Assembly (NCBI GenBank): GCA_006503475.1
Contig: RSEH01000182.1
Location: 32,039 to 96,038, forward strand
Length of the DNA stretch: 64,000 bases
Direction: 5' to 3'
Source of the DNA: Stentor roeselii
Taxonomy: Eukaryota; Ciliophora; Heterotrichea; Heterotrichida; Stentoridae
How positions within the stretch are numbered: position 1 is the first letter of the stretch; each line of letters opens with the position of its first letter. Shown here in pieces: positions 3,404 to 60,457 of the stretch. The translations under genes were made by a program, and so were the position numbers. The notes beneath the pieces were generated by a model. The model saw only the letters and a program-made list of their open reading frames with translations, ran no database searches and had not been told where the DNA came from.

Positions 3404-6400
3404 CTAATTATTACTAGCTAAAAATGTCATAATCCTGTCAATCCCACTTTGAATTCCACTGATTTTTCCATCAAGTTCCATAACCTTCTGATTAATTTCA
3501 TTATGACTACAATCAACTTTCCTCCCAAGTGCATCAATTTTAAGGTCAAAATCAGTCTGAGTCAATTTAAGAATTTCCAAAACATTTTCATTTCCAGCAG
3601 GACTATTCATAATCTTAACTAAATTTTCCTGAACAGGTAATATTTTTTCCTCAATAAACTGTTGAGTTTCAATAATCTTTTCATTAATTTTTTCCCCAAA
3701 CCTATTCTGATTTTCAGAGAAGACCTGAGTAACTTTTTCTATTTTTTTTTCCATATAAATCATCCTCCCTTCCCAAGACTCTTGCATTCCAGCAGAAGCG
3801 AAAGATTTCATAACATGCATGAAAAAGTTCGAGTTTATTTCCCTATTCCAAAACATCATCTGTTGTATTTCCAGACTAAGAATTGCTTTTTCTTTATAGT
3901 CAATGATATTTTTTTCTACTTGGAACTGGTCATGTGAGTCTCCAAGAATAGAGACTAATAAATTTAGCATCACGATTACATTGATCATTGTCGCGATTAT
4001 ATAAACTGCTTTGAGTAAAGCTGGAGCCTCTTCAGTCATGTCGTAGCTGCCGAAGTTTAACTTGTAGGGAGTCATCCATAGTGTTTCGAATGTTACTGAA
4101 ATAGCCTTTCCGTCGCTTACCATCACCATTGAACCGAAGGTGATTATTGCGTAGCTTAACATTATTACGAAGAATTTTGTGTCGCTTACTGAACGGAGGA
4201 TTAAACGCACGTAGTAACGAGTACCGTCGAATAAACGAAAAGCTGTCAGTCCTCGTAAGAAGTTTGTGAAAATTACTAACCATAGTAAAGGTCGCCATGA
4301 TATACTGAAAATTATCCATGTAAAAGTTGAGAGGATTCTTAGCATGTCGAATATGTTCCAGGTGTCTGTGAAGTATTCGAACTTTTGGATTGCGATTTGG
4401 ATTCCTTCCCAAGCAACCAATAGTATATTAATCAAAACAAAAATTGAAACATAAAACCAATTATCACTATTCTTATCACCATCAGGTCCCGATTCATCAA
4501 TCAACACAAGTATCAAAGCAATATTAACAAAAAGTAATAAAGAATACCCAATAGTCCAGTACTTAACTCTATTCCATTGAAATTGAATATAATTCTGAAT
4601 AATTTCAGTTTCAAAGATCTGACTGTCAGAGCATTCAAGAATCGAATTCAACAAGTTAATGACTTCTGAAGATCCTACCTGAGAAGGAAGTTCAAACAGA
4701 CTAAAATCAAACTGAATTGGAATTTCTTCTAAATGCTCTTCATCTTTTTGCTCTTCATTTAATAAAGATGGAGTTTCATTCAAACTTGGAAGAAAAGTTG
4801 AACTGAACTGAATCCTTGGCAAGGAAACGGAAAGTTTAGAAAAAAAAACTGGACTTGTTTGAATCATCACGTTTAAGAAGTCTTTTAAATGAACTGAAGA
4901 GTTTGAAATTATCATTGTAAAATCGTGTCGAAGAGAGTAAATCGAACTGAAACATTCAAGTTGTTTTGATTCTTCTATTGATTTGCAGAGGTAGTTTAAA
5001 ATTAAATCTGCACAGTTTTGGTGCTTTTTTATTATTGCGTAGTATATCGGGGATCTACTGAATCGATCAGGCCGGATCAGAGTAGGTTGAGTCAACAAGT
5101 TTTCAATAATATCATCCCTTCCATTAAAGCAAAGTACATGAAGAATAGTGAATTTATATTGAGTAAAAGAAACTTGACTCACTGTTTTAGACATAAAAGA
5201 ATACTCATCACTTCTAATATTTTCATAAATATTGTAAAAAACTAATTTATCCTGACAATAAGGATCAAAAGTATTCTTAATACTCCAATTTTCCCTTTCC
5301 ACATTCTTCAAAATAGTATTCAAAGTTCTATTACTAGTATAATAATTCTTAAAATCCCAAAGTTTCAAGGCCTGATCAGCTGATCCAGTCAACAAATAAT
5401 TATTTCCCATGATAGCAAGTGAAGTGATACTATCAGAATGAGCTCTAAATGAAAATTCAACACATTTTTCTTTTAAATCCCAAATCTTAACCAAACAATC
5501 ATCACCTCCACTGATAAGTCTTTCCTGATCCTCACTTTCACAGATCGCGACAACTTTTCCAGTATGTCCAAACAAGAAAAAATTTTCATTCCCATAAAGA
5601 AAATCCCAAATCTTAATCGAAGAATCTTCCGACCCAGTCGCTAAAAGTGTTTCATTTCTTATCAAAGCAGAGCAAATCACAGGTCCTTTATGATTTTTCA
5701 TCACTTTCAATTCAGACCTTTCAGCAATATCCCAAATTTTAATAGTTTTATCAAATGACGTGCTGATTATCCAGTTATTTTGAGAGAAAAGTAATAAACT
5801 TTGTATTGCTCTACGATGTCCACTCAAAGTGAACTTTAAACGTTCTTTATCTTTCCACTGAGGAGATTCTGAAGGTAGTCCAGAAATATCCCAAATCTTG
5901 ATACTTGAGTCTAAACCGCCACTTATTCCAATATTAAGGTCTTGAGTCACTTCTACCGCACTAATCGAATTTGTATGACCCGGCAAGCCACAGCTGATAT
6001 TTTTCTCCAAGTCAAAAACAATGAAATTTTTATCTCCTCCTCCAGCGACCATGACAGTTCCATTAGAATGAACCCTTAAATCACTGATAAAAGTATTAGA
6101 AACAACGAAGTATTTACAAAATTTGTTGGTAAGAGCATCATAAACACAAACACTCCCGTTGGACATGCCAATATAAAAAAAATCATGAAACCTTCGAATC
6201 ACGTAGGCTGTGGCCGAAGGCCACAGCATGACAGTCTTTTGACGACATGTTTCAATGTCCCATAATGTTAAACTCTTGTCACTTGCTGCAATTAATAAAG
6301 AGTCACTGCATAACTCAATTGCTCCGAAAATATTAAAACTCGCTGCAATGCAAGAGGCTTTTAAAGTAAAATCATGAACGTTCCATAGTTTAAATGTTCG

Positions 6401-9400
6401 GTCATATGAAGCACTCACTAGAAATTCACCTGATTTTATAAAGGTTAAACATGATATTTCTTTTGAATGGCCTGGAAGAGTCTTTTGAGGCTTTCTTGAT
6501 GATAGGTCCCAAATGGTTATTGAAGAATCTTGACAACCGGAGGCTAGATGGGATGAGGATGGGTTGAAAGCTAGAGATGATATCGGCGATTTTGAACCTG
6601 GAAGGGAAAATTTTTCTTCCATTTTGGACAGGTCCCAGAATTTTATGGTTTTGTCGAAGGAACAGCTTATTAATGTTATAGGGTCTGCGATGACTAGAGA
6701 ACATACTGAACTTGTATGGCCTAAAAGTTCATTTATTAAATTTCCTGAATGAAAGTCCCAAATCTTAATTGTCTTGTCCCATGAAGCACTTATCAAAATA
6801 TCATCAAGAAAGACAAGTGCCTTAACAAGATCCCCGTGTCCTTGAAGAGACTTTAAAAATATTCTCATCTGAAAGTTCCAAATTTTAATGCTTTTGTCCT
6901 TACCAGCACTAGCAATAAGTTGATACTTGTCACTAAAAGCTAGTGCTCGAATCGCTTCCTGATGCTCCTGAAATTTCATCAACAAGCCACCAGAGGTATT
7001 CCAGACAATCAACCAACCATCCTCAGTTCCAGCAATAATAAGTCTTTTCTCAGCATCTGTGCAAATTGCCAGAACTGAAGAGTTAACTCCTACAAACTTT
7101 GCCCTTTCGCACATGTTTTTAATATTCCAAAGCTTGATACTTGAATCAGCCGATGCGCTGATGACATATTTGCCATTAGGACTAAAGAGCACTGATTTGA
7201 TAACTTCTCTCAAATGTCCTTCTAAGGTTAGTACTCGATGACTGTCTTCTAAGTTAAAGATATGGATTTTGTTGTAGTCGTTCCAAACTGCAAGCTTTTG
7301 ACTTGGGTGGATATCGATGCAGTTTGCTGCATAGACTATGTTTTGGAAGGTGTTTTCTAGTTTTTTGTTTGTTAAGGACCAAATTTTTATTGATTTATCC
7401 GCTGATACTGAAAAAATTCGCCCTCCTACTACTTTTATTTGGTTTATTATTCCTGTATGTCCGAGAAACTGATGTTCTATTCTTTTAAATGTGATTGACC
7501 ACATTTTAATCTTGTCATTATTCGCAGAAATTAAAAACAGTGAATCATCTGTAAAAGCCAAAGAGCTCACAACACCAGTCTCAGGAAACGAAACAACAAG
7601 TTTTTTCGAACTAGTACTCCAAAGTTTAATCTCACCATCCGAGCTGCCTGTAACAAAATTAGAGTCATCAGGAGATAATTCAAGACATTTGATATCTTTG
7701 GTGTGTGCCTTATCACAAGAATCTTCTTGTTTGCTATTCACATTAAAAAAGCGAACTTCTCCGAATTCGTGACCAGTGATGATAGTTTTTTTATCTTTTG
7801 TTAAGCTAAAGCAAAAAATTTTTCCATAAATCGTATTCACTGTTTTCAGTGGTGACTTTGAGTTTAATATCCAGAGTCTTATTGATTTATCTTTAGATGC
7901 GGAAAAGAAGTGTTTAGGATTTGTTGATAAGACCAGAGAGTGAATAGTTCCTGAATGTCCTTCAAAAATAGTACAGCATTTTTTAGTCTGCAGGTCGAAC
8001 GAAAGTATTTTTGAGTCTTGCATCCCTGCCAAAAGGTAAGCATCATCATAAGAAATTTCAATAGAATAAATCATAGTAGCAGTCTTTATAACAGAAACCT
8101 CAGACCCCGTTGTAAAATTAGTAATAATAATCGACCTACACTGAGTTGCAACTAACACCCATTTTTTCGATTCTAAAACCTTAACTGCATTAAGATAATC
8201 CGAAAACTTTTTCCTAAACTGCGAAACTCTTGAAGCAGCCTCCCAAACTTCAACCTCTCCACCCAAGCTGCAAGCTGCAAAAAAAATCTCATTTTTCGAC
8301 TTACAAGTATCAACAACTGGAAATAGAAATTCTTTAACCACATTAAAATTTTCCATTCTCAAAGTATCCCAAATAACCAAAGTCTTATCATTTGAACTAC
8401 TCATCAAGAAGCTATTAACAAAAAGTAACGAAGTGATTTTTTCCCGATGATAATTCAATGAAAGTACCACCTCTCTCGATGAAAAACTCCAGATCTTAAC
8501 CTGAAAATCAGCAGAAGCAGAAGCAGCGAGTTCATTTTTCAAATCACTAGCAATACACGTGACTTCCTTCTGATGAAACGAGAGAGTTTCAAGTAACTCA
8601 GCTTTATCCGTATTCCAAATTCTTATAAGTGAGTCAGAGTATCCAGCAACGATATTATTTTTCAATGCAAGGGCGATACACAGTACTTCAGGAAGTCCAA
8701 AAGTAATGACTTGATTTTTTTTCTCAATGTCCCAGACCTTGAGAGTTGAGTCACTCGAGGCACTGACGAGGTAGTCGCCACAACTGGAGACTTTTATCAT
8801 GTTGACTTCTGACTGATGTCCGAAAAGTGTGCAGTAGTCTTTCCTGCTCACTGTGTTGAAGACTTTTATTGTCTTGTCGCTGAGACCTGTTATGATTTTC
8901 TGAAGGTCGCTTGTGGCACAAACCGCCAGGGTGGTGTTCGGATAGTAAGTCAGGCCGTAAACCTTCTTTTCCAAGCTTAGGTCCCAGATAGTCATGTAAA
9001 AAGCATCAGAACAAGTTAAAAGCAACTTTGAGTCATCAGCGAGTTTTAAAGATTTCACACCTCTTGAGTCTGTTAAATGACATTTTAATGTCCAATCTTC
9101 TTGATTCCAAACTTTTATTGAAACTCCTGCAGATGAGGCAAGGAAAACCTGGTCGATATCTAGACAAGTCACACTTTCATTGAAAATTTCTAAGATTTTC
9201 TCGTTTTTCTTATCAGATATCTCGAATAACCGAAGACTCTTATCAGAGCATCCGGAGATTAAGTACTTTAAATCATTTGAAATCTGGATTGAATTCACTG
9301 CAGAAGGCATTTCGATGTTTTGAATTAAAATTCCTTCTATTGTCCATTGTTTTATCAACTTGTCGTCTGAACAGCTGAAGATTTGGTCAGAACCTAAGAA

Positions 9401-9808
9401 AAGTGCAGAGTTGACTTTTTCACTGTGGCCTGTAAAGGTTCTGATTAGGGATCTACTTGCAAAGTCCCAAAGTTTTAAAGTCGTGTCAGATGATGAGCTC
9501 AGAAACATGGAATTTTCTTGGTTGAAGGAAAGACTTAACACGTCTGCGCTGTGGGACTTTAAAGTTTGAACTAGCTTTAGATCTGTCAGGTCCCAGATTA
9601 TGATGGACTTGTCGGTGGAACCACTTAAAAGTGAATGGTCGTCGGAGGATAAGGCGAAACAGAGGATGGAACCTGAATGGGACTTTAATTCACCTTTTAT
9701 TTCGATTAACTCTCTTTGGAGAACTTCAAAGTCCTTGGGTTCAGGATTTGGATTCCCGTTTTGAGCTTCAAGAAGCTTTAAGGTTAGATCTGAACCTGTT
9801 GAAACCAT
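3404..9808 (-). CDS. WD40 (35 blades) - ankyrin-like - TRP-like cation channel fusion
   Basis: 2134 residues in one uninterrupted frame. Residues ~40-1495 hold 35 recognisable WD40 blades, each ending in a strand such as SIKIWDL or TLKLWDF. Thirty-five equals five seven-bladed propellers. Residues ~1559-1612 (ILHVLCFNGRDDIIENLL, SPIYYAIIKKHQNCADLIL) look like two ankyrin repeats. Residues ~1745-1955 contain about six membrane segments, with a TRP/polycystin-like layout: a pore-like stretch near 1905-1922 and a last helix rich in N, V and L (NVIVMLNLLVSILGD). A charged, coiled-coil-prone tail follows to 2134. The likely role is a cation channel carrying a very large cytoplasmic scaffold. Ion selectivity and gating cannot be read. 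The ATG lies in ATATAAATGG on the minus strand. Confidence 0.85.
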   Translation of the reverse strand: MVSTGSDLTLKLLEAQNGNPNPEPKDFEVLQRELIEIKGELKSHSGSILCFALSSDDHSLLSGSTDKSIIIWDLTDLKLVQTLKSHSADVLSLSFNQENSMFLSSSSDTTLKLWDFASRSLIRTFTGHSEKVNSALFLGSDQIFSCSDDKLIKQWTIEGILIQNIEMPSAVNSIQISNDLKYLISGCSDKSLRLFEISDKKNEKILEIFNESVTCLDIDQVFLASSAGVSIKVWNQEDWTLKCHLTDSRGVKSLKLADDSKLLLTCSDAFYMTIWDLSLEKKVYGLTYYPNTTLAVCATSDLQKIITGLSDKTIKVFNTVSRKDYCTLFGHQSEVNMIKVSSCGDYLVSASSDSTLKVWDIEKKNQVITFGLPEVLCIALALKNNIVAGYSDSLIRIWNTDKAELLETLSFHQKEVTCIASDLKNELAASASADFQVKIWSFSSREVVLSLNYHREKITSLLFVNSFLMSSSNDKTLVIWDTLRMENFNVVKEFLFPVVDTCKSKNEIFFAACSLGGEVEVWEAASRVSQFRKKFSDYLNAVKVLESKKWVLVATQCRSIIITNFTTGSEVSVIKTATMIYSIEISYDDAYLLAGMQDSKILSFDLQTKKCCTIFEGHSGTIHSLVLSTNPKHFFSASKDKSIRLWILNSKSPLKTVNTIYGKIFCFSLTKDKKTIITGHEFGEVRFFNVNSKQEDSCDKAHTKDIKCLELSPDDSNFVTGSSDGEIKLWSTSSKKLVVSFPETGVVSSLAFTDDSLFLISANNDKIKMWSITFKRIEHQFLGHTGIINQIKVVGGRIFSVSADKSIKIWSLTNKKLENTFQNIVYAANCIDIHPSQKLAVWNDYNKIHIFNLEDSHRVLTLEGHLREVIKSVLFSPNGKYVISASADSSIKLWNIKNMCERAKFVGVNSSVLAICTDAEKRLIIAGTEDGWLIVWNTSGGLLMKFQEHQEAIRALAFSDKYQLIASAGKDKSIKIWNFQMRIFLKSLQGHGDLVKALVFLDDILISASWDKTIKIWDFHSGNLINELLGHTSSVCSLVIADPITLISCSFDKTIKFWDLSKMEEKFSLPGSKSPISSLAFNPSSSHLASGCQDSSITIWDLSSRKPQKTLPGHSKEISCLTFIKSGEFLVSASYDRTFKLWNVHDFTLKASCIAASFNIFGAIELCSDSLLIAASDKSLTLWDIETCRQKTVMLWPSATAYVIRRFHDFFYIGMSNGSVCVYDALTNKFCKYFVVSNTFISDLRVHSNGTVMVAGGGDKNFIVFDLEKNISCGLPGHTNSISAVEVTQDLNIGISGGLDSSIKIWDISGLPSESPQWKDKERLKFTLSGHRRAIQSLLLFSQNNWIISTSFDKTIKIWDIAERSELKVMKNHKGPVICSALIRNETLLATGSEDSSIKIWDFLYGNENFFLFGHTGKVVAICESEDQERLISGGDDCLVKIWDLKEKCVEFSFRAHSDSITSLAIMGNNYLLTGSADQALKLWDFKNYYTSNRTLNTILKNVERENWSIKNTFDPYCQDKLVFYNIYENIRSDEYSFMSKTVSQVSFTQYKFTILHVLCFNGRDDIIENLLTQPTLIRPDRFSRSPIYYAIIKKHQNCADLILNYLCKSIEESKQLECFSSIYSLRHDFTMIISNSSVHLKDFLNVMIQTSPVFFSKLSVSLPRIQFSSTFLPSLNETPSLLNEEQKDEEHLEEIPIQFDFSLFELPSQVGSSEVINLLNSILECSDSQIFETEIIQNYIQFQWNRVKYWTIGYSLLLFVNIALILVLIDESGPDGDKNSDNWFYVSIFVLINILLVAWEGIQIAIQKFEYFTDTWNIFDMLRILSTFTWIIFSISWRPLLWLVIFTNFLRGLTAFRLFDGTRYYVRLILRSVSDTKFFVIMLSYAIITFGSMVMVSDGKAISVTFETLWMTPYKLNFGSYDMTEEAPALLKAVYIIATMINVIVMLNLLVSILGDSHDQFQVEKNIIDYKEKAILSLEIQQMMFWNREINSNFFMHVMKSFASAGMQESWEGRMIYMEKKIEKVTQVFSENQNRFGEKINEKIIETQQFIEEKILPVQENLVKIMNSPAGNENVLEILKLTQTDFDLKIDALGRKVDCSHNEINQKVMELDGKISGIQSGIDRIMTFLASNN
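6207..6227. repeat. GC-rich perfect inverted repeat inside the WD40 coding region
   Basis: GCTGTGGCC, a 3-nt GAA loop, then GGCCACAGC: a 9-bp perfect stem in otherwise AT-rich coding DNA. It encodes LWPSATA within a blade and keeps the frame. Confidence 0.7.
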
Positions 9809-13567: not shown

Positions 13568-13788
13568 GGTCAAGTCCAAGTTTGCGCCTAGATAAGCACT
13601 AAAAGCGAAAGCTCTTTATCTGGGAAGGTCTGAGGTGCCCGTCATCCGAGAGGAAATACACGAGAGTGTAGAGATGGTCAACAGAAACAAACCAGCAATG
13701 TGTTGAAAGGGCCATTAGGCATGCAGCTAAGTCCAATGCGCAAAGGCTTTAAGCTAACTCAATTCAGACTACTCTGGATTTGACCTTT
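13568..13788 (+). ncRNA. RNase P RNA
   Basis: About 220 nt encoding the catalytic RNA of RNase P, which matures tRNA 5' ends. The ends pair as P1: GGTCAAGTCCA (13568-13578) with TGGATTTGACC (13775-13785), 11 bp with one G-U. TGGGAAGGTCTGAG at 13621-13634 is conserved region I, as I remember it from human H1 RNA. CAATTCAGACTACTCT at 13760-13775 is conserved region V, and the two form the P4 pairing (GGTCTGA with TCAGACT). Between them, GAGATGGTCAACAGAAAC (~13671-13688), followed by AAACCAGC, resembles the CR-II/III/IV core. The layout fits RNase P rather than RNase MRP, which has GAAAGTCC in region I. The island is visibly less AT-rich than its surroundings. A T run follows immediately. Confidence 0.9.
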
Positions 13789-37081: not shown

Positions 37082-38521
37082 ATGAACATGTCAAATTTTG
37101 TAAATACTCCAAGAGCAACAGCCTCATCAACCTTCCGAGAGTTACTAATCGAAAAAAAGCGTGATCAAAAGCTTCCAGAACTAGTAAAACTTTCATCAAG
37201 AACTCCAAAGTTGCAGTTAACAATAACCCAAAACTTCGCATTACCCGACATATCAAGAATGCACACACCAAAGCCCCGTCGAATCTCTCCAATTCTAGCC
37301 CACACCTTAGAAAAGCCTTTAGAAAAGCAGCTAATAAACCTAGAAAGACTGATTCAAAGAGAAGAAAAACTATCAGTGATCCACGATTCACTATCACAAG
37401 ACATATCTCTGGGCAACATCTGCACTGACTACTGGGAAATCTCCAACGATGAGGCACTTTGGTCAGTGGAGCGTCTTTTAAAAGACAGCCGAACGAAAAA
37501 GTCGATGGTTGACAGCATAATCCTTGAAAGTCTTGCCATTTCACTTCTAATCTTCTGCAGTGGGCACATAAACGACTGGTCACCAATAGTAAACCAACTT
37601 CGAAACATGATTTATTTCATTCATCAAAACTTTCTCACCCTTGTCGACCTGGTCCTTTCTCGACTCCCGTTGGAAGCCTCTCCTTCCACCTGGGTGTTAA
37701 CTTTAAAGACAGTCCTCAAGTCAAAAAAAACCAAATCAGCGAAGCGTTCAGAGCATTCAACTTGTTTAAAGCAAAACAATGAAATAATCGCAAACTGTAT
37801 TCGAACAATAATCCGGCTGATGCCGATAAAATCAACTCCAGCCCTTTCAATGATAATGCACATTTTATCAAATCGCGACAAGTTTTCAATTCCAGTGGCT
37901 CGAAGTTACGTGTTTCAACAGCCAAGCATGCAAGAGTCCTCAGTGCTTCCGCCTTATCTTCCTGAGATCCGAGGAAAGACCTTGACTTTAGTACTTGACC
38001 TCGACGAAACTTTAGTCCATTACTCAATTCAAGGCACCAGTGGGCAGCTGCTTATTCGGCCGAATTGCGAAGCCTTTCTTGACTCAGTGGCTGAAGTCTT
38101 CGAACTTGTTGTTTTCACTGCTGGCCTTCAAGAAGTAAGAGAAAATTAGTACGCCGACTGGGCAATCGACCTTGCAGACCCGAAGAGACTTGTCCAGCAT
38201 CGGCTTTATCGCCAACATACTTTACAGATTGGAGCTGTTTATATCAAGGATCTTAGCAAACTTGGAAGGGACTTGAAGAAAACGATTATTGTTGATAATA
38301 TGCCTTCTAATTTTCAACTACAACCTGATAATGGAATTTTTATTAAAAGTTGGGTGGGAGATGTAAGTGATTCGGTACTTTTAGAAATGGCGGAAAATCT
38401 TAGGAGTAAGGATTAGACAGAAATTGCGGATAGTGCTGATGAAGATATTAGGAATGCTGTTAGGGCTGGAAGGACTAGGAAGAAAAATGAGTTGGATAAT
38501 GTTTTGAATCTTTCGATGTGA
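37082..38521 (+). CDS. FCP1/SCP-family (HAD) protein phosphatase (two 15-nt introns)
   Basis: 469 residues after removing introns 38135-38149 and 38406-38420. The C-terminal third is a NIF/FCP catalytic domain: TLVLDLDETLVHYS with catalytic D306 and D308, RPNCEAFLDSVAEVFELVVFTAGLQEYADWAIDLADP, then KTIIVDNMPSNFQLQPDNGIFIKSWVGD. The end, IADSADEDIRNAVRAGR, aligns with the usual last helix and is only reached by splicing intron 2. Members dephosphorylate phospho-Ser/Thr proteins such as the RNA polymerase II CTD. The N-terminal ~250 residues are unique, with a basic, serine-rich start. The ATG at 37082 is used because the upstream extension begins at a TTG. Confidence 0.88.
38135..38149 (+). 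other. 15-nt intron 1 of the FCP/SCP gene
   Basis: GTAAGAGAAAATTAG. Removal joins TAGLQE to YADWAIDLADP, the conserved FTAxxxxYAxxVxDxLDP motif. Confidence 0.95.
38406..38420 (+). other. 15-nt intron 2 of the FCP/SCP gene
   Basis: GTAAGGATTAGACAG. Removal bypasses a TAG and joins AENLR to KIADSADEDIRNAV. Confidence 0.82.
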
Positions 38522-46281: not shown

Positions 46282-49200
46282 ATGCTAAATGGAGAGAATT
46301 CAGAAACTTTAAATGTTTCCTATGAAATCCCAAGAAAGTCGAACCCGATAAGTCTTTTGCAAGACCCAAGCTCGACGCAAGTCGGGACTTCAGACCAGTC
46401 ATCATTTTTAAAGTTATCAGTTTTTAAGTCAAAAATGAGAAAACTTAAAAAACTTCAGTCATTTCGGAATGTTTCTCAATGCAAAGTAAAGTCACAAGAG
46501 AAAGAAAGTTATGCGGAAATCATAAAACTTCGACCTATCACGAGGTATGAAGTTTTGCAGCAGTATTCAGATACATATCCTCTGCTTGAGAGTCGACTGG
46601 CGATACTGAGGATAAAACACGCTTGTACTGAAATAAGTCTTTCGATTATAGGACATAAAGTATTTGAGTACTTTATTATTCTCATTATTTTGATCAATAC
46701 TGTCACTTTAGCTATTTTCGATGCGAATACGAACTCAAATGTACAGCAGGATTTAGACTTTTTCTTTTTAGTTATTTACACTATTGAGATGTGTTTGAAA
46801 ATCACTGCGAATGGACTCGGTGTGGTCTCTTCAGGGTATTTAAGAGACTACTGGAATATCCTAGACTTTTTCATAGTAGTCACAGGGTGGATCTCTTATC
46901 AAGGCTCCGCAAATGTCAACATCAACTCACTCCGAACTCTTCGAATCCTTCGACCATTACGAGGAATTTCTTCAATAGGAGGTCTTCGGGTGTTATTCGT
47001 GGCATTGGTAGGTTCAGTGCAGCAACTACTAGCTTCATTATTCCTTTTACTTGTCTTTCTCATCATCTTCGCAATTGCAGGTCTTCAGCTGTGGTCAGGA
47101 GTCCTGAAGTCAAAGTGCATGAACATCGAAACTGGAGTTTTTCTTTCAGACTCTTGTGGAGCACTTGTCTGCCCGTTTGACTCAGAATGTGTCAAAAGTT
47201 TAGACAATGCTCAGTTCGGGGTCACTTCTTTTGATAACCTCCTGGCGTCGATGTTGGTCGTTTTTCAATGTGTGACTCTTGAAGGATGGACTGATGTCCT
47301 TTTCACTGTTCAGAAGGTTTTCAGCAGATACTCTGTTGTTTACTTTGTTTTACTTGCTTTTATTGGAGCTTACATGCTGGTTAACCTTACTCTAGCGGTT
47401 ATTAAAGGAGCCTTTACTGTTGCCATGAATGATGTTCGTGCAAAGGAAATGAATGAAAAAAATGCTGATGAAATTATTCATTCACAGATTATTGCTCAGC
47501 AGTTGAAAGAACCTCGCGACTTTAGAACTGCTGCCGTTTCTGAGATTGATTTGTCTGATGATGAGGAACAGGAAGAAGGTGAGGAAGAAAGGGTTAATCA
47601 GAATCTTAGTGCTCGGCATAGACCTAAACATCTTAGACATCTTTTTGAAGGGTCTCGATCTGGAGTCACTGAAGAGTTTTCAGCGATTGGGAATACTCTT
47701 GTTAGGAGATTGACTCAAAATTATCAGAGACAACTCACGCATGTTTATGATAATGAAAGCTCGAATAGCTTAACTCCACATCTTATTTCTATGAACTCTT
47801 CTATTGGAGTTAATAGAAATTTACTATCGAAAATTGGGACTACTGCTTCTTTGCAGAGTATTAAAGTGCAAATTCTTGCTAATCAGTTGGTTAAATCGGA
47901 GTCAGTTTACGACATCTTACCTAAAAAATTCGGATACAACCTGCTAGACACCTTGAGTTTTCAAACCGAGTACAAATTTCGTTACAAACAACCTCTAGAA
48001 AAACTTCAAGGAATGGACGAAATCGAAGACCAAGTGCTAACCTTTTTCGAATCCCTAAAAAACGGTGACCGTCGAAAAATCTTCAGTCACTTCTCAGAAG
48101 TTTCTCTGAAACTCGGTGCGAAAAAGGCATTTTGGAAGGTAAAAGTATGTGTAAAAGAGTTCATAAAAGTAATAAAAGAACGTGACAACATAAGCAAAAA
48201 CATCATCGCAATCCACAGTGAAGTAGACCCAGAGAAGCCTTTAAAGCCAAGAACCTTAATAAGTCTATCAACAATGCCCTACTCATTATGGAAGCCCGGT
48301 TATTTAGGTTGTTTCGAAAAATTTTCAACTCCAATAAAACTGATGATAACTTCAAGAATCTCTACTTTTTTCATATCTCTGATCGTGATCTCAAACATAG
48401 TGACTTTATCTTTAAACAGATATGGGATGTCAAGTTCCCAAGAAGAAATTTTAACCAGTATGAACACGTCCTTTACTCTTATCTTCGCCGTGGAAATGGG
48501 TTTAAAGCTGATAGGACTCGGCCCAAAGCAATACGTCCGCGATCGAATGAACTACTTAGACCTGATAATCACTCTTCTCAGCATAGTCGAGTTAATTTTC
48601 ATCACCAAAAGTGGTTCAGCGATTTCTGCTTTTCGAGGCGTGAGAGTCTTTCGGTTAATCCGAGTAGTTCGAATAGTGAGACTCTTCAGGTACCTCCAGT
48701 CAATGGCTCATATTTTCCAGGTGATTTCAAGGTCGATATCTAAGTTTATTTACTTGGCTTTGTTTTTATTGCTGTTGATTGTGATTTATAGTCTTCTTGG
48801 AATGAGAATATTTGCTGGGAAAATGGATAGTTCGATTACTAGAAGCAATTTTGATAGTTTTCATTGGGCTTTTATTACAGTTTTTCAGGTACTTACTTTA
48901 GAGAATTGGCAAACTGTGCTTTATGCCGTTGTTAATTCTAATGCTGGATATGCCAGTTCTATTTATTTGATTTCTTGGATTTTTATTGGTAATTATGTTG
49001 TTTTGAACTTGTTTCTTGCGATTTTACTTGATGCTTTCAGTGAAAATGATGAGGAAGAAGAACCTGTTGAGGATGGGGAGGATGAAGGACCTAATAATAG
49101 AAGAAGCTCGCTTTATGGAAATTATAAGGAAAGGTTGAATAAGAAAAGGGAACTTAATATGAAGAGGATTCAGGATATACCTGAACAGGATAGCGATTTT

Positions 49201-51555
49201 GAATTTGATCATTTGAACTCTATGACTAAATTGGAGATGATTTATGATGGCATTGAATGTGAGAAAAGTTTTGGAATTTTTTCGAAGAAGAATAAAGTCA
49301 GGATTTTTTGTATTAAGGTTTCGAATAGTACAAAGTTTGAATGGATTATTTTGGCTGTTATTACTTTGAGTAGTATTAAACTGGTTGTTGACACCTACCT
49401 AGCCCCTTCAGAAATTTCAACCTACATCGACGCTTGTTTCACCTTAGCCTTTACCTTAGAATCCACGATTCACTCAGTGAGTTTAGGTTTCTTCATGAGT
49501 AAAGGTTCCTATTTACGCGACTGGTGGAATTTGACAGATTTTCTAATAGTCGTGATATCAATAATAGACTTTTCCGTAAGTGGAATCTCAGTAAAGTACA
49601 TAAAAGTCTTCCGACTTCTGCGAACACTTCGACCACTTCGATTTGTCTCTCACAACGTTTCAATGAAAATAATAGTAAAAGCTTTACTAGAGTCAATAGT
49701 TGCGATTATCAATGTAGTCGTTGTTTGCATGATAATCTGGTTAATGTTCGCAATTCTTGGAGTTTCCCTCTTCGGAGGGAAACTTTACCAATGTTCCAAC
49801 GAGTCGATTGACTCGATGTCGGAATGTGAGAAGACTGGGAATGACTGGGAAGTGACTTACCCGAACTATGACAATATCATGAGCGCCATGGTCACTCTTT
49901 TCATTCTTAGCTCACTTGAAGGGTGGCCTGATTTGATGTATGCGGGGATCGACGCCCGAGATATTGGAATATCTCCGCAAAAGAACTACAATCCTTATGT
50001 TGCTTATTATTTTATCGGCTTCGTCTTTGTAGGGTCTTTGTTCTTTTTGAACTTATTTATCGGAGTTATTTTTGAAAAATTTAACGAAGCTAAAATTAAT
50101 GAAACTGGATCTTCAGCGATGTATTTAAATAAAGAACAGATCATCTGGGTGGAAATGCAGAAACTTATCATCAACTCAAAGTTAAAACTAGAAAATTCTG
50201 TGAAAAAAGACTCGAAAGTACAGGTTTTTTTCTTTAAAATCGTGAAAAGCTCGTGGTTTACCTATTTTATCCTGACATGCATTGTGCTTAACATGGCGCA
50301 AATGGCGATGATTTATGATGGGGCTTCAGCAGAATACTCTCAAGCCCTGGACGGAATCAACTTGGCTTTTACTTTGATATTCATTCTAGAAGCAGTGATA
50401 AAACTAGCAGGACTAGGAGGTAAAGAGTACTTTAAAAGCAACTGGAATCGATTTGACTTCTTTGTTGTGATGACCTCGGTGATTGACTTGACTATTTCTT
50501 ACTTCATCAACTATAACTTGTACATACTTCGCATTGGTCCACAGTTGATCAGGGTGTTGCGAGTTCTGCGAGTTTCACGATTAGTGCGATTGTTTAACTT
50601 TTTGAAGCCGCTTCAGAATCTGCTTACAATTATGTCTTATTCTTTACCAGCGATTATGAATGTTTTGAGTCTTCTTTTACTGTTTTTTTTTATTTATGCT
50701 GTCCTTGGGGTTTACTTGTTCAGCGAAACAGATGACACAGATATCATTGATGACTACTCGAATTTTAAAAATTTTGGAATGGCGATGATCACGTTGTTTC
50801 GATGCTCGACAGGAGAGAACTGGTATCAAATAATGCAAGCTTTTTATAAGTCTCATGGAGTGACTCTGAGCTGTGCTTATTTTATGTCGTTTATAACGAT
50901 ATCCACCTTTGTCATGTTCAACTTATTCATAATGGTAATTCTTCAAAACTACGACGATTATATGAGCAACCCAGATTCCCTAATCAAGAACTTTACCACA
51001 AATTACAAAGAAATCAAACTTGCCTGGACAAATCACTGCGAAGGCGAACTCATTTATTTCAAAGAACTCAGAAACATAATGTATGACCTTGGCGAAAACC
51101 TAGGAGTCCCTCCAGATACAAACTTCGAAAAACTTTCTAGAATTTTAGCATCACTTAACTTAGAGTTCACTTCAAACGGTCAAGTTTATTTCAAGGACTT
51201 TTTATTCTGCATTTTGAGAAGAAAATATGGAAAAAAGGTGAAAATCACTAAAAAGTTGAGGAACATTGCAATAAAAGAAGAACAAAGCACTCGTAAAAAA
51301 ATTAAACAAATGAGAAATAAACTTGAAAATAACAACCGTGAAAGAGTTCATCGCAAAAGCAGAGCTGGAATCGACGATCAAGGAGGAAATTACTTCATGG
51401 AAATGATGTCAGCGAAAATGGCTTTTAAGGCATGGAGAGGTTATTCCCAGAGAAGAAGACAAAAACACATGGAAATGCTTTGCAGTCTAAGTGTCACTCC
51501 AAGAGATGATGAAGAAGAGTTCCCAGGTATGAACAGTATCACTTCCTATAGTTAG
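46282..51555 (+). CDS. Four-domain voltage-gated calcium channel alpha1 subunit (EEEE)
   Basis: 1757 residues, four repeats of six membrane segments. S4 sensors are visible at ~214-235 (RTLRILRPLR), ~784-808 (RVFRLIRVVRIVRLFR), ~1105-1125 (KVFRLLRTLRPLR) and ~1421-1440 (RVLRVLRVSRLVRLF). Selectivity glutamates are E334 (TLEGW), E874 (TLENW), E1213 (SLEGW) and E1512 (TGENW), so the filter is EEEE: calcium-selective, not sodium. The I-II linker is long (~300 residues) and acidic. The C-terminus has an EF-hand-like region and an IQ-like helix (AFKAWRGYSQRRRQKHM) that could bind calmodulin. It probably carries the calcium current for ciliary reversal or contraction. No intron is visible. Confidence 0.93.
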   Translation: MLNGENSETLNVSYEIPRKSNPISLLQDPSSTQVGTSDQSSFLKLSVFKSKMRKLKKLQSFRNVSQCKVKSQEKESYAEIIKLRPITRYEVLQQYSDTYPLLESRLAILRIKHACTEISLSIIGHKVFEYFIILIILINTVTLAIFDANTNSNVQQDLDFFFLVIYTIEMCLKITANGLGVVSSGYLRDYWNILDFFIVVTGWISYQGSANVNINSLRTLRILRPLRGISSIGGLRVLFVALVGSVQQLLASLFLLLVFLIIFAIAGLQLWSGVLKSKCMNIETGVFLSDSCGALVCPFDSECVKSLDNAQFGVTSFDNLLASMLVVFQCVTLEGWTDVLFTVQKVFSRYSVVYFVLLAFIGAYMLVNLTLAVIKGAFTVAMNDVRAKEMNEKNADEIIHSQIIAQQLKEPRDFRTAAVSEIDLSDDEEQEEGEEERVNQNLSARHRPKHLRHLFEGSRSGVTEEFSAIGNTLVRRLTQNYQRQLTHVYDNESSNSLTPHLISMNSSIGVNRNLLSKIGTTASLQSIKVQILANQLVKSESVYDILPKKFGYNLLDTLSFQTEYKFRYKQPLEKLQGMDEIEDQVLTFFESLKNGDRRKIFSHFSEVSLKLGAKKAFWKVKVCVKEFIKVIKERDNISKNIIAIHSEVDPEKPLKPRTLISLSTMPYSLWKPGYLGCFEKFSTPIKLMITSRISTFFISLIVISNIVTLSLNRYGMSSSQEEILTSMNTSFTLIFAVEMGLKLIGLGPKQYVRDRMNYLDLIITLLSIVELIFITKSGSAISAFRGVRVFRLIRVVRIVRLFRYLQSMAHIFQVISRSISKFIYLALFLLLLIVIYSLLGMRIFAGKMDSSITRSNFDSFHWAFITVFQVLTLENWQTVLYAVVNSNAGYASSIYLISWIFIGNYVVLNLFLAILLDAFSENDEEEEPVEDGEDEGPNNRRSSLYGNYKERLNKKRELNMKRIQDIPEQDSDFEFDHLNSMTKLEMIYDGIECEKSFGIFSKKNKVRIFCIKVSNSTKFEWIILAVITLSSIKLVVDTYLAPSEISTYIDACFTLAFTLESTIHSVSLGFFMSKGSYLRDWWNLTDFLIVVISIIDFSVSGISVKYIKVFRLLRTLRPLRFVSHNVSMKIIVKALLESIVAIINVVVVCMIIWLMFAILGVSLFGGKLYQCSNESIDSMSECEKTGNDWEVTYPNYDNIMSAMVTLFILSSLEGWPDLMYAGIDARDIGISPQKNYNPYVAYYFIGFVFVGSLFFLNLFIGVIFEKFNEAKINETGSSAMYLNKEQIIWVEMQKLIINSKLKLENSVKKDSKVQVFFFKIVKSSWFTYFILTCIVLNMAQMAMIYDGASAEYSQALDGINLAFTLIFILEAVIKLAGLGGKEYFKSNWNRFDFFVVMTSVIDLTISYFINYNLYILRIGPQLIRVLRVLRVSRLVRLFNFLKPLQNLLTIMSYSLPAIMNVLSLLLLFFFIYAVLGVYLFSETDDTDIIDDYSNFKNFGMAMITLFRCSTGENWYQIMQAFYKSHGVTLSCAYFMSFITISTFVMFNLFIMVILQNYDDYMSNPDSLIKNFTTNYKEIKLAWTNHCEGELIYFKELRNIMYDLGENLGVPPDTNFEKLSRILASLNLEFTSNGQVYFKDFLFCILRRKYGKKVKITKKLRNIAIKEEQSTRKKIKQMRNKLENNNRERVHRKSRAGIDDQGGNYFMEMMSAKMAFKAWRGYSQRRRQKHMEMLCSLSVTPRDDEEEFPGMNSITSYS

Positions 51556-53238: not shown

Positions 53239-53455
53239 TCTCCAAACTTAAACCCTTTCCTCCCAAATAAATCTAAACCATTTCCCAAACTTCTCCTAAA
53301 TTCCCATCTAAAAAACCCTCTCAAAAAAAAATCTCTCAAATCTAAAATCTCTCAAATCTCAAAATCTTAAAAAATCAAAACCATTCAACCAAAACCCCAT
53401 CTCTCTAAAAAAACCAAAAAAAAATCCTCCTTCCTTTCACCTAATAAAAAATAAT
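53236..53455 (+). other. 220-nt stretch with no G before the kelch-BTB start
   Basis: From 53236 up to the G of the ATG at 53454-53456, the plus strand contains only A, C and T. It holds an imperfect tandem repeat around 53330-53366 (ATCTCTCAAATCTAAA-like units). It is the 5' leader/promoter of the kelch-BTB gene and the 3' end of the SHIPPO gene. Confidence 0.9.
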
Positions 53456-54997
53456 GGATCACGAGAACACTTCACCCTCTCATTATTCAGACTCCTCAGC
53501 AGCAGCAGGCCATCCAATAGTCGAATTAAACCACGCTCAACGTTGGCGACAGATCACAAGCGAGAACGGTCCACGTCCTGACCCTCGAAGCGGTGCAGCG
53601 AGTGTGGTTCACGAGAACTCCTTATTCATCCTGGGCGGATACGGTGGAAACGGCCGTCTTGACGACCTTTGGGAATACCGTTTTCAGGAAGAGCAGTGGC
53701 ACAAGTTGAATGCAAGAGGACAGATCCCAGCAGGAAGAGAGAACAACGGAGCAGTTATCTATAAAGGAGCAATGTACATCTTTGGAGGGTATTCAGGAGT
53801 CTTCTGGCTGAATGACTTCTACAAACTCGATCTGTGTAAATCTTATATAGAGGCACTTTGGACTGGGCTCCTGTCATGGTCAGAGATGGATACGCGCCAA
53901 GTACGAGGTTTGGATATGTCAGTACGGTCTGGAAAGACACTTTTATCATCTTTGGAGGGTATGACGGGTCCACCTGGCTTAACGACATGCATGAGTTCAA
54001 CTTCACTAAAGCTGTTTGGACTAAACTTGACGTTGTTGGAGTCGTTCCTCCAAAAAGAAGCTGCCCTTCTTGGGCAACTTATAAACATTCACTTTTTGTC
54101 TTTGGAGGATATGATGGCGTTCATAGAATGAATGACTTCAACGAATTTGACTTGAAATTGAAGGTCTGGAGACAAGTCGTGTTTTCAGGACCAGCACCTG
54201 CACCTCGGTACTTTCACTCGTCAGTTGTTTATGGGGACTACATGTATATCTTCGGAGGGTACAGCGGGGTTGAAAGGCTTCAGGACCTTTACCAGTACAG
54301 CTTTGAAAAAAACTCTTGGACTTGCTTAGATGTCGAAAAACCACCTTCGGGAAGGTCAAGTCTCGTCGCTCAGGTCTATAAAAACTCTTTGTATATCTTC
54401 GGAGGGTATAATGGAAGTTTGGTCTTGAATGACTTTCACGAGTTTCGATTTGAACTGATTTCAGTCCCGCAGTCGAGTTTTATCAATGATCTGAGAAGTA
54501 TGATTAATTCTTCAGTGTTTTCTGATGTGACTTTTATTATTGAAGGAAAAGAAATCAAGGCGAATAAAGCGATTTTAGCGGCTAGATGTGATCACTTTAG
54601 AGCTTGTTTTTACTCGGGCATGAAGGAAATGTATGAGTCGAAGATCACTTATGACGACATCGCTTACAATGTATTTGAAGCGATTTTAGAATATTTGTAT
54701 ACTGATACTGTCCGTGGCATGAATGTCGATATGACTGTTTCTTTGATGATTGCTTCTGAGAGGTTCATGCTTGACAGGTTGAAAGCGATGTGTCAAGACA
54801 GTATTAGAAAAAATATAACAACAGATAATGTGGTTCCTATTCTTCGTGCTTCTCATATTCATAACGCCTCTGCTTTGAAAGATATTTGCTTGGACTTTAT
54901 TTGTTCAAGGAGTGAAGAAGTGAAAAAAACGAGAAGTTTCACTGAATTGGTTAATGAACCTGAACTTTTATTGGAACTTGTGATGAGACTCAAGTAA
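53454..54997 (+). CDS. Kelch-BTB protein, kelch N-terminal (one 17-nt intron)
   Basis: 508 residues after removal of intron 53834-53850. Six kelch blades lie in ~30-330, each with a G-G-Y/F and W: FILGGYGGNGRLDDLWEY, YIFGGYSGVFWLNDFYK, IIFGGYDGSTWLNDMHEF, FVFGGYDGVHRMNDFNEF and so on. One BTB domain follows at ~350-455 (DVTFIIEGKEIKANKAILAARCDHFRACF). Kelch-first, BTB-last is the LZTR1-like order, the reverse of KLHL proteins. Likely a Cullin-3 substrate adaptor. Splicing restores LDLGTLDW, the regular blade sequence. The intron is 17 nt long, which is unusual. Confidence 0.82.
53834..53850 (+). other. 17-nt intron in the kelch-BTB gene
   Basis: GTGTAAATCTTATATAG. A 15-nt excision of GTAAATCTTATATAG would leave a TAG stop, whereas 17 nt restores the frame. 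An A lies six from the end as in the other introns. A one- or two-base assembly error is the alternative. Confidence 0.62.
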
Positions 54998-57145: not shown

Positions 57146-60100
57146 ATGAAAGCTTTAACCTTAAGCCTAGTACTTGGATTAATCACTTCAATGAAAGTAT
57201 CAATCTTGCACTCTTTACTAAACCCGAACTTTTTCCTCTCAGAAGTCAAAAACACTTCCTCAAGTCAACTTCTTATAACCCAAACTTCAGACATAATCGA
57301 AAAAGTGAGCCCAGAAGCCGAACTTCTTTACGACTTGACTTTTTCTCCTGTTTATTCAGAGTTAATTAAAGAACTAAGCATAAAAGACGAGAAATTTTAC
57401 ATCAAAGGCTACTCTTTTCTTTCAGAGCCTAATAAATTCGAAATAAATCCAAAAAATGAAGAATCAACCATCTTAAGCCTTTTCAACAGTCTTTTAATAA
57501 AAAACTTTGCAGTGGTTTATTCTCTCCAGTCAACCTCTACTTTTCCTTCACTCCTGGAAAAAGCTAAATTAAAATATCTAATAGAATCAGAAGTTTCACC
57601 AAATACTTTAAAATTTCTTCTACAAGAGTTAAAATTCTCAGAAATTTCAACAATTTTCCTTGCTTTACCTGGAAAAACCACGCTAAATTTCTTTGAACAG
57701 TTGAATAACATAGACTTCTCAAATTACATCTGGATTCTTTCAGAATCTTCAGATTTTCTCGAGTTTTCCATAGAAAAAAAACTAACAAAAGATGGAATTC
57801 TTCGACTTTCAAGAAGTTTTTCCTCAAACTTTATATCTGAAACATTTTCTTTTTTTACAAACTGCGAATTTGAAGAGTTTTTTCAATGTTCGAGATCTTT
57901 TTCCCCTCCTGACTGGCATATTTTAAATGTGGTTGAAGGAAAATATCGAAAAGTAGGTCGATGTGGTTTGACCTGTGAGTTCGAAGCAGATTTTTATTGG
58001 CCGAAGGGAGTTGTTGACATAAAAAACCATAAAAAGTCTTTGATGGTTTCGTTTGAAGCTAGTTTGCAGGATCCTCAAGGGCAAAGTCTTGAGTTTTTGA
58101 GACCTGCTTATCAAGGAATCGAATTAGGACTCGCTTATGTTAATAATATCAGCTCGGCTTTTTCGGTTAATGCTACTCGTCTGGATTTGGGAGGAACTTA
58201 TTTTAATAGATCGTTTGTTAATGAGTCTTTAGAGAAGATTAATTGGAAACTTGGATTGGCAACTATTGCACCTCCTATTTCGGAATTAGCTGTGAGTTTT
58301 TATCAAGAGATGCAGAGTAAAACGATTGTGACTCCTATGATTGGATACTCGAATACAGTTTCGATGATGTCCTCTCAGCTTGAATTTCCGTACTATTCAC
58401 GAGTTTGCATGCCAGATACTTACGTAACTGTTATTCTATCAATGATGGCAAAGTACTTTGGATGGCAGAAATTAGGAGTCTTATATGTTGATAATTTATT
58501 TTCTCGTACTCTTTATAATGAGTTTAAAATTCAGTCCCAGACTTATTCCTTAACGATTTTGAATGAAGGGAACAACAAACTTCCAGCAAACTCAAAACTT
58601 TGGAAAAATCAAGAATTTAATTCTATTTTTGAATCGTTGGGCAAAAGTCAAGCAAGAATTATTGTAGTATTTTGCTTTACTAATGAGATTGAAACTATTT
58701 TGATGAAGATGCATGAGCTTGGGTACTCTGGAGATGAATACGAATACTTAGCAGTAGGTTGGCTAGTCGATGATCTAATAAATCCCAAAGGTAAATTCGA
58801 TCCAACCCATTTGAAAATAATCCGAAACTCCTTAAAAGGTTCCCTGATGTTTTTCCCAGTGAGTTTCGTAGACGATTTCGGTGCATCAATAAAAGAAAAA
58901 TACGAAGCTTCATTCAAGACCTCTCCAGTGGGTTATTCATCTTTCGCTTTCGATTCAGTTTTAGCAGTATTCAACACGCTCTCATCATTGATGTTAAGCC
59001 AAAAAGACTACGAAAACCCTTCGAATTTCATGAGTTCTTTAAGAAGCATAAGATTTTTAGGTACTACAGGTCCAGTGACATTCCAGCAAGGTAAAAACGA
59101 CCGATCTCCAATGGACCACTATATCTTAAATACGAAAAAAGTGAATAATTCCTGGGAAATCAAGAAAATCGGGATTTTTTCTCCTTCGAGTTTAAAAGTT
59201 TTCACTTTTTATGAAAATATTACCTGGCCTGGGGAGAAAATCCCTTCAGATGACCCGATTTCTTATAAATGTCCTTTTTCTCCAGATCAGGTAAAACAAG
59301 ATAAAATAGGAACTGTTGTTCTTTTTATTGTCTTTTTAATTGTGCTTGGATTGGTTTTTTTCTCGATAGTTTCCGGTTGGAATCGTTGGAAAGATGCTGA
59401 AAACATTTCCAGAACTGGAAAAAAATATGAAATGACCTTCACTGATATTTTAAATATCAGTAAAATCCCTATCGAGTTCTTTCAGTACCTCGGACTGATA
59501 CCTTCACTTCCAATAATATTGACTATTTTTAAATCTATTGGAAATGTGGTCTCTCTTGACTTAGAAGCGGTTTACAAACTAGAAAGTTCTATTTTTTGGA
59601 TAGTTTATCAAGTGGTTCTTGCATTTTCAGCCTTTTGCGCATTTCTTCGAGTGCTGAAAGTCTTTCGTATTTCAATTCCATATTCAAATGTCCTTGTTTC
59701 CCTTTCAAGTGACTTGTTTTTTATCTCAACTTTGACGAGTTTGCTGAATATTTACCTCTGCCATGAGAGAAGCTCTTATCCTTTCTTGTACTTTGACTGT
59801 AAAACACGTTGCTGGGAGTCAAGTCATTTAATTTACGTGTTCTTTAACTCAGTTGTTTTGGTTTTTTACTGTCTTGTGATGGTCTACTTGAAGCCTTTCT
59901 GGGCTTCTGGCAGTTTAGAAGACCAAAACGTGGCAATTTCAGGTTCCCATACTTACCTCAAGACTTTCATGCAAGTTTTTCTCATTTGTTTGAAGAAACT
60001 TGTCTGGATAATCGGTTCCAAGGCGTATTCATTGACGATGCTAGTCTGCATTTCAGCTTATCTCGTATTTAACTCACAGAAACAAGCTTTTAATGTTGAA

Positions 60101-60457
60101 ATTTTGCAGCTTTGGCATGTTTTGAGCTACTTTGCTGTTGCTTTTGTTTGTTTCTTTTCTTTTATTTGTGAAGTCACGGGCTCTTATGACTCACCTCTTT
60201 GGCTTATCGCAACTCTTGTCACTTGGGGAATGATTCTAATGGTCGGGCTTTTCATTCAGAAGATGAAGAAAATGTTCTGGCCTTTTAATGGAGGAGTTGT
60301 TGATATCATCTTGTTGAAATTCGCTTTTCAGAATAAGAAAATCGATTGGGTTCATCGGCATAGCAATATTTTTCATCACTTTTGGATTGAAAGAGGAGAT
60401 GATGGCCTGAAAGACGTGCAGGACTGTCGAGCTCCTCCGAATAGTGTTAATTTATAA
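57146..60457 (+). CDS. Venus-flytrap (periplasmic-binding-protein type I) receptor with eight membrane segments
   Basis: 1103 residues. Signal peptide ~1-18. Residues ~300-720 look like an ANF-receptor/Leu-binding domain: SLEFLRPAYQGIELGLAYVNN, APPISELAVSFYQEMQSKTIVTPMIGYSNTVSMMSSQLEFPYYSRVCMPD, KYFGWQKLGVLYVDNLFSRT and VGYSSFAFDSVLAVFNTL. The order is that of metabotropic glutamate/GABA-B receptors. About eight hydrophobic segments occupy ~726-1050. An extra ~280-residue domain precedes the flytrap, and there is no cysteine-rich linker. It probably senses an extracellular amino-acid-like ligand. Whether it couples as a GPCR cannot be said. Confidence 0.78.
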   Translation: MKALTLSLVLGLITSMKVSILHSLLNPNFFLSEVKNTSSSQLLITQTSDIIEKVSPEAELLYDLTFSPVYSELIKELSIKDEKFYIKGYSFLSEPNKFEINPKNEESTILSLFNSLLIKNFAVVYSLQSTSTFPSLLEKAKLKYLIESEVSPNTLKFLLQELKFSEISTIFLALPGKTTLNFFEQLNNIDFSNYIWILSESSDFLEFSIEKKLTKDGILRLSRSFSSNFISETFSFFTNCEFEEFFQCSRSFSPPDWHILNVVEGKYRKVGRCGLTCEFEADFYWPKGVVDIKNHKKSLMVSFEASLQDPQGQSLEFLRPAYQGIELGLAYVNNISSAFSVNATRLDLGGTYFNRSFVNESLEKINWKLGLATIAPPISELAVSFYQEMQSKTIVTPMIGYSNTVSMMSSQLEFPYYSRVCMPDTYVTVILSMMAKYFGWQKLGVLYVDNLFSRTLYNEFKIQSQTYSLTILNEGNNKLPANSKLWKNQEFNSIFESLGKSQARIIVVFCFTNEIETILMKMHELGYSGDEYEYLAVGWLVDDLINPKGKFDPTHLKIIRNSLKGSLMFFPVSFVDDFGASIKEKYEASFKTSPVGYSSFAFDSVLAVFNTLSSLMLSQKDYENPSNFMSSLRSIRFLGTTGPVTFQQGKNDRSPMDHYILNTKKVNNSWEIKKIGIFSPSSLKVFTFYENITWPGEKIPSDDPISYKCPFSPDQVKQDKIGTVVLFIVFLIVLGLVFFSIVSGWNRWKDAENISRTGKKYEMTFTDILNISKIPIEFFQYLGLIPSLPIILTIFKSIGNVVSLDLEAVYKLESSIFWIVYQVVLAFSAFCAFLRVLKVFRISIPYSNVLVSLSSDLFFISTLTSLLNIYLCHERSSYPFLYFDCKTRCWESSHLIYVFFNSVVLVFYCLVMVYLKPFWASGSLEDQNVAISGSHTYLKTFMQVFLICLKKLVWIIGSKAYSLTMLVCISAYLVFNSQKQAFNVEILQLWHVLSYFAVAFVCFFSFICEVTGSYDSPLWLIATLVTWGMILMVGLFIQKMKKMFWPFNGGVVDIILLKFAFQNKKIDWVHRHSNIFHHFWIERGDDGLKDVQDCRAPPNSVNL

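Follow-up and report, generated by a model that had tools for sequence, protein, structure and literature searches.

A stretch of 64,000 nucleotides from the ciliate Stentor roeselii (assembly GCA_006503475.1, contig RSEH01000182.1, positions 32,039 to 96,038; hereafter the window, whose numbering we use throughout) carries, at 3404-9808 on the minus strand, a gene that joins 35 WD40 units, two ankyrin-like repeats and a six-segment channel in one open frame of 2134 amino acids, which runs from ATG to stop with no internal stop codon. The parts follow one another as WD40 arm, ankyrin-like repeats, channel and helical tail, and relatives elsewhere in the genome have the same layout. This joining of WD40, ankyrin-like and channel parts had been described before, from the letters of the DNA alone; the observation is confirmed, and the interpretation then given to it is, as a whole, partly supported. 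What needs correction is the picture of the gene as a single curiosity: at least 165 places in the same genome match the channel.

The genome that was searched comprises 44.4 Mb in 522 contigs. With the 648-residue C-terminal part of the window protein as query, matches were found at all 68 scored candidates; with the membrane part of a divergent member, they were found at all 147; and a third query, scored at 150 candidates, produced 152 matches, of which 150 were listed. Merging the lists left at least 165 distinct places (147, plus 18 from the third query and none from the first), a lower bound in which some places are broken or partial. The open frames of the 147 places span fewer than 1000 residues in 15 cases, 1000-1450 in 89, 1450-1850 in 17, 1850-2300 in 20 and more than that in 6. 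We read 36 open reading frames (ORFs), the window gene included, namely those at the best 30 of the 68 places and six chosen from the 147; a channel alignment (A1) was built from 29 of the best 30, with C31 omitted, and these are the 29 aligned members referred to below. WD40 units lie in frame upstream of the channel in 33 of the 36 ORFs. A further ORF, C506, is matched by WD40 propeller models (best 8.4e-16) below the curated Pfam cut-offs of those models, and when it is counted, the ORFs in which WD40-type repeats and channel share one frame number 34 of 36, or 33 of the 35 relatives of the window gene. The fusion of WD40 repeats to the channel is thus a conserved architecture. The two remaining ORFs are C31, which has an interrupted frame, and C453 (L052, G000:C453:168900-173500). 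No WD40 unit was detected in C453, where several hundred residues containing low-complexity repeats separate an S2-like from an S3-like motif.

These frames also bear on whether two adjacent genes, or a mis-joined contig, have been read as one, an explanation to which we give very little credence. Tiny introns do occur in this genome, for example one of 15 bases at window 38135-38149 inside a phosphatase-like gene (read by eye), so an open frame by itself may be misleading. However, the 33 relatives with in-frame WD40-type repeats are spread over many contigs, which argues against split transcripts; the parts before and after the arm-channel join are under similar selection; and the sole in-frame GTAAG 15-mer of the channel part, at residue 1897, sits where relatives also have residues.

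Nine of the ten full-length long paralogs align along the entire arm without any deletion of 15 or more residues, and one of these nine (C514_150634) carries a 93-residue insert. Identity of the window protein to the nine is 18-28% for the arm and 34-38% for the channel. When pairs above 35% identity were excluded, like-numbered blades were the best match in 17 of 35 rows, where about 1 in 35 is expected (mean residual 8.8 versus a standard deviation (SD) of 4.1); a result of 35 out of 35 had been inflated by close paralogs and was discarded. For three pairs, the ratio of nonsynonymous to synonymous substitution rates (dN/dS) came to 0.287, 0.372 and 0.174 over the full length; no segment, whether of arm, linker or membrane part, reached 1, and the averages of the arm segments were 0.17-0.50. 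Because the alignment covers the whole arm, the blades correspond and dN/dS stays below 1 throughout, arm and channel behave, to judge from these comparisons, as one constrained protein.

Some members show local histories of their own. On G000:C425 (L006/L007/L041/L042), two 35-blade channel genes lie in opposite orientation, and their first 500 codons are near-identical (pS 0.003) as against a pS of 0.335 in the membrane part, a sign, it seems, that the N-terminal end of the arm recently underwent gene conversion. In a 14-blade member (L032 and L055, G000:C339:223600-228802) the blades are unusually alike by eye, which suggests that the repeats were homogenised recently. No relative turned up when viral contigs were scanned.

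The WD40 nature of the arm is evident from the Pfam scan, in which PF00400 matched the window protein with E=3.9e-171 over 23 stretches. Hand tiling by the WD end motif gave exactly 35 units of about 41 residues, as in WD40 beta-propeller proteins, between residues 32 and 1485, and a scripted dynamic-programming segmentation gave 35 at all six thresholds. The two counts, which agree with the 35 repeats first proposed, are not fully independent, since the profile used by the script (the last 15 residues of the units) was trained on units of the same WD40-TRP family. Among the 25 of 55 families listed in the whole-protein scan, Beta-prop_EML_2 reached 347.9 bits against a cut-off of 90; many unrelated WD40 propeller models were likewise above their cut-offs, so the EML-type match is generic. 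Grouped in sevens, the units would form propeller 1 (units 1-7, residues 32-318, window 8855-9715), propeller 2 (units 8-14, residues 319-606, 7991-8854), propeller 3 (units 15-21, residues 607-895, 7124-7990), propeller 4 (units 22-28, residues 896-1184, 6257-7123) and propeller 5 (units 29-35, residues 1185-1485, 5354-6256), all on the minus strand. Tiling and segmentation define the units, and we infer their grouping in sevens from in-phase block matches to the 28-blade relative C307, in which propeller 4 has no counterpart.

The original prediction took 35, as five times seven, as an argument that whole propellers had been duplicated. Inside the arm this did not hold: blades seven apart are no more alike than others (p=0.85), and the similarity is likewise absent when ten sequences are used per unit (p=0.36). 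Internal similarity thus gives no sign of whole-propeller duplication, and any such duplication is too old to see in this way. Part of the idea is recovered from the relatives. We counted blades in 25 of the 36 ORFs, the window gene included, leaving out C31 (stops in the match), C453 (zero WD40 units found, motif interrupted) and nine ORFs that are open at the 5' side at the edge of the DNA. The count was a multiple of seven in 18 of the 25 at each of six thresholds (one of 7, four of 14, three of 21, one of 28 and nine of 35); the nine 35-blade ORFs, among them the window gene, are related and hence not independent events. Multiples of six were found in 2 of 25, of eight in 2 of 25 (1 at the laxest threshold) and of five in 11 of 25, the last mainly because 35 is itself five times seven.

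The clearest case is the 28-blade relative. C307 lacks 269 arm residues of the window protein, and its propellers 1, 2, 3 and 4 match propellers 1, 2, 3 and 5 of six 35-blade members averaged, with values of 15.0, 9.1, 15.3 and 17.8 (SD 3.55), while nothing in C307 scores above 3.9 against propeller 4 (residues 896-1184 of the window protein). The six best diagonals of the block comparison are all in phase. Against the window protein alone, C307 propellers 1, 3 and 4 (the last to propeller 5) score 2.7, 3.3 and 3.0 SD.

Several results weigh against reading the arm as a set of whole propellers, in addition to the lack of internal similarity between blades seven apart. Seven of the 25 counts fall off the sevens (11, 13, 20, 24, 24, 25 and 31), of which the 11 drops to 9 at the two strictest thresholds and one 24 rises to 36 at the laxest. 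The single count of 7, in C12, is probably an undercount, because 334 residues separate its last detected unit from the ankyrin region. Propeller 2 of C307 does not match the window protein alone (0.3 SD). Single-sequence AlphaFold models were unusable, with a mean pLDDT of 33.1 for residues 315-1500 and 40.7 for residues 1487-2134. On the other hand, two of the counts off the sevens, C47 (13 blades) and C512 (20 blades), each contain a step of 71 or 72 residues that may hide a further unit. Mapping 14- and 21-blade relatives by block onto the 35-blade arm gave no clear result, and a channel tree of 32 rows did not give the ancestral blade number. Overall, the counts clustered on multiples of seven and a relative without propeller 4 make it look as if the arm gains or loses blades a whole propeller at a time, and the same two lines suggest that the units close into seven-blade rings. 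The absent seven-blade block of C307 would then be a natural example of the propeller as an evolutionary unit.

Between arm and channel lie the two ankyrin-like repeats that had been proposed (about residues 1551-1606, window 4991-5158, minus strand). In the window protein the Ank_2 match (E=1.6e-4) is below the curated Pfam cut-off; at E<=0.1 the same model matches 23 of the 29 aligned members, with a best value of 2.3e-8, and H1557, G1563, D1581 and S1586 are invariant in all 29. With about two repeats, the window protein does not have a long N-terminal ankyrin array of the TRPN/NOMPC type.

The membrane part spans S1-S6 (about residues 1747-1964, window 3917-4570, minus strand) and had been called TRP-like, which the profile searches bear out. 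PF00520 (Ion_trans) scored 31.5 bits on the window protein against a cut-off of 25 (E=1.3e-7), and at E<=0.1 it was found in 19 of the 29 members; TIGR00870 trp was found in 11 of the 29 at the same threshold (best 8.6e-7). When the 29-member membrane profile was compared with solved structures, TRPM8 came first (E=1.5e-6), followed by PKD2L1 (4.1e-5), Kv1.2 (9.9e-5), TRPV4 (1.8e-4), a chain named Inactive (2.2e-4) and the TRP-like 6pw4 (6.9e-4), with TRPV1 also among the lower-ranked matches. Within residues 1747-1964, five hydrophobic segments exceed a simple hydropathy threshold in the single sequence and four merged ones do in the family mean, six being the number obtained by alignment to TRP channels. 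Other findings count against the cation-channel reading that we favour below: at E<=0.1 no NCBIfam model is found in the window protein, trp being matched in other members; PF00520 does not reach all 29 members at that threshold; and the pore is weakly conserved.

The matches to PKD2L1 and Kv1.2, and the PKD_channel model found in 3 of 29 members at E<=0.1, are what could be said for placing the membrane part outside TRP, in a different six-segment family (Kv, Cav or polycystin). We regard such a placement as improbable. TRPM8 is the best match and three other TRP-type structures (TRPV4, 6pw4 and TRPV1) follow further down, the trp model recurs in the members just mentioned, and a better non-TRP match was sought among the solved structures and none was found. 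Moreover, the S4 region carries R1852, R1858 and R1864 spaced six apart (read from the sequence and the alignment), and the every-third-residue basic ladder of voltage-gated channels, looked for by eye, was not seen there. Within TRP, no melastatin homology regions of the TRPM type were found: residues 32-1485 are tiled by the 35 WD40 units, and a Pfam scan of residues 1487-2134 listed six families, none of melastatin type, the whole-protein scan having listed 25 of 55 families. We conclude that the membrane part is a TRP-superfamily core, as far as profiles can assign it, without clear subfamily.

A predicted cytosolic Ca2+ site (window 4346-4408, minus strand) is formed by E1801 and Q1804 in S2 and N1818 and D1821 in S3. 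The two residues of each pair are three apart, and all four are invariant in the 29 aligned members; the pattern E-x-x-Q...N-x-x-D is present in 34 of the 36 ORFs and absent from the interrupted C31 and from C453. In the HMMER alignment the four residues sit on E-V-R-Q and N-V-M-D of TRPM8, that is, on E782/Q785/N799/D802. According to excerpts of PMC9166780, Glu782, Gln785, Asn799 and Asp802 are the residues to which Ca2+ binds in mouse TRPM8, and TRPM2, TRPM4 and TRPM5 have kept this site. Excerpts of PMC11530238 describe a similar S2/S3 Ca2+ site in TRPA1, with the S2 residues one helical turn lower relative to TRPM8, and give TRPV3 as lacking such a site. Since N-x-x-D alone is common among voltage-dependent cation channels (abstract of PMC3503820), the argument depends mainly on the S2 pair. 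The residues of the TRPM2/4/5/8-type site are thus in place, and we treat them as a predicted Ca2+ site.

After S6, a segment in the place of the TRP helix (about residues 1965-1985, window 3854-3916, minus strand) contains two glutamates, E1973 and E1980, that are invariant in 29 of 29 members. The C-terminal tail (about residues 2013-2134, window 3407-3772, minus strand) is a probable coiled coil. It had been predicted as one; it is helical in the AlphaFold model, whose confidence is low (the mean pLDDT of 40.7 given above), and the coiled coil itself is plausible, with scattered coiled-coil family matches in some members and TRPM_tetra in 1 of 29.

From these features we lean, with some reserve, towards a tetrameric, Ca2+-modulated cation channel of the TRP superfamily with a propeller arm that would tether it, or couple it, to partners in the cytoplasm. 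Four subunits would assemble through the channel core and the C-terminal helices, which would give each assembled channel 20 propellers. The channel would be gated or modulated by cytosolic Ca2+ bound at the S2/S3 site, and the arm would serve as tether and docking scaffold, the linker of ankyrin-like repeats and pre-S1 region relaying partner binding or mechanical pull to the pore. Between paralogs whose arms differ, partners or locations would differ too. The earlier suggestion that the channel is tethered to, or gated by, a large cytoplasmic scaffold fits such a scheme and keeps its standing as an inference. A lead for a partner comes by analogy from Chlamydomonas, where deflagellation needs both ADF1, a TRP channel, and ADF3/FAP16, a separate EML-like WD40 protein (as described in excerpts of PMC5068960).

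A rival reading makes the arm a mechanical tether, comparable to the ankyrin spring of NOMPC, that links the pore to the cytoskeleton, with microtubules as the natural candidate, and opens it when pulled. Arm length varies mostly by sevens of blades, NOMPC heads the single-sequence list of PDB matches, weakly (E=0.024), and Beta-prop_EML_2 is among the propeller models matched. Mechanoreceptor channels were reportedly described in Stentor by Wood in 1988 (as cited in PMC7935092), which we also count for it. The fusion of two partners such as ADF1 and ADF3/FAP16 would fit as well (PMC5068960, from the same excerpts). However, a row of propellers resembles beads rather than a continuous superhelix, and among the Pfam families listed for the window protein no specific cytoskeleton-binding domain was identified, the EML match being generic. 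We hold a mechanical tether of this kind to be unlikely, if still a serious candidate.

The size of the family invites another reading, in which the genes form a chemosensory repertoire whose diversified propellers recognise cytosolic ligands or partners and whose channel is the common output. At least 165 places in the genome, and arms that are less similar (18-28%) than channels (34-38%) between the window protein and the nine long paralogs, are what such a repertoire would lead one to expect. Yet the arm-segment dN/dS of 0.17-0.50, an average over segments rather than a site-level value, speaks against diversification, WD40 cores drift fast in any case, and an arm taken as cytosolic is not expected to sense outside ligands directly. 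We rate this repertoire as rather improbable and prefer the Ca2+-modulated channel with a coupling arm. As a bolder and tentative extension, which we consider doubtful, "propeller-armed TRP channels" would constitute a large eukaryotic channel class, with a TRPM-like Ca2+-sensing pore and a modular cytosolic arm of two to five whole WD40 propellers (up to 20 per tetramer) at 165 or more places, in which arm length and surface set the gating cytoskeletal or signalling partner. If true, such channels would be candidates for the mechano- or chemoreceptor channels of large ciliates. Apart from that extension, a family with stacked WD40 propellers at well over a hundred places in one genome, and with TRPM-type Ca2+ residues invariant among the aligned members, would supply concrete candidate genes for ciliate sensory channels and would be a new means of connecting a TRP pore with the cytoplasm.

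The rest of the window holds further genes. A four-repeat voltage-gated-type channel of 1757 residues with four Ion_trans stretches lies at 46282-51555 (plus strand), and about 16 such four-repeat genes were seen by eye genome-wide among the Ion_trans matches listed. At 57146-60457 (plus strand) is a receptor in which Pfam matched the ANF-type ligand-binding region alone (E=6.9e-29); its C-terminal part is hydrophobic by eye, and it resembles a class C G-protein-coupled receptor. A nuclear RNase P RNA is found at 13570-13783 (plus strand), with 87.5 bits versus a gathering score of 28. A kelch-like gene at 53454-54997 (plus strand) consists of two overlapping ORFs joined by an apparent 17-base GT...AG intron at 53834-53850 (read by eye). 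The window has 28 ORFs of at least 200 residues; in the 26 that were tallied, two that run into introns being omitted, the stop codon is TAG in 14, TAA in 11 and TGA in 1. Together with the tiny introns and the nuclear RNase P RNA, this is in keeping with a heterotrich ciliate that reads the standard genetic code.

Known TRP channels have ankyrin, melastatin or polycystin-type parts beyond the pore. The original prediction knew of no characterised WD40-TRP channel, and we too found no such fusion described in the titles and abstract openings listed when open-access literature was searched for WD40 together with channel terms. The combination may already stand unremarked in domain annotations. 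What we report is a TRP core with a cytosolic architecture that we did not find described, much expanded in this genome. Compared with known systems, it resembles TRPM2/4/5/8 in the similarity of S1-S6, in having the S2 E-x-x-Q and S3 N-x-x-D in register and in its C-terminal helices. TRPM channels have N-terminal melastatin homology regions, whereas the N-terminus of the window protein consists of WD40 units and two ankyrin-like repeats. With NOMPC/TRPN and other ankyrin-TRP channels it shares ankyrin-like repeats before S1 and a very large N-terminus on a TRP core; NOMPC, however, has 29 ankyrin repeats, while the window protein has about two and owes its length to 35 WD40 blades. Multi-propeller scaffolds such as WDR3, Utp21, EML and TEP1 have similar tandem WD40 propellers, as the Pfam propeller matches indicate, but to our knowledge they are not fused to a channel. 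TRPA1 carries ankyrins and, as far as we know, no WD40. It is alike in its S2/S3 Ca2+ site and differs in that its S2 Ca2+ residues lie one turn lower when aligned to TRPM8 (excerpts of PMC11530238). In Chlamydomonas, a TRP channel (ADF1) and a WD40 protein (ADF3/FAP16) take part in one process, deflagellation, as two separate proteins (excerpts of PMC5068960), a likeness of description. By this analogy, the propeller-armed channel of Stentor may be the fused form of a partnership between a TRP channel and an EML-like WD40 protein that Chlamydomonas keeps apart.

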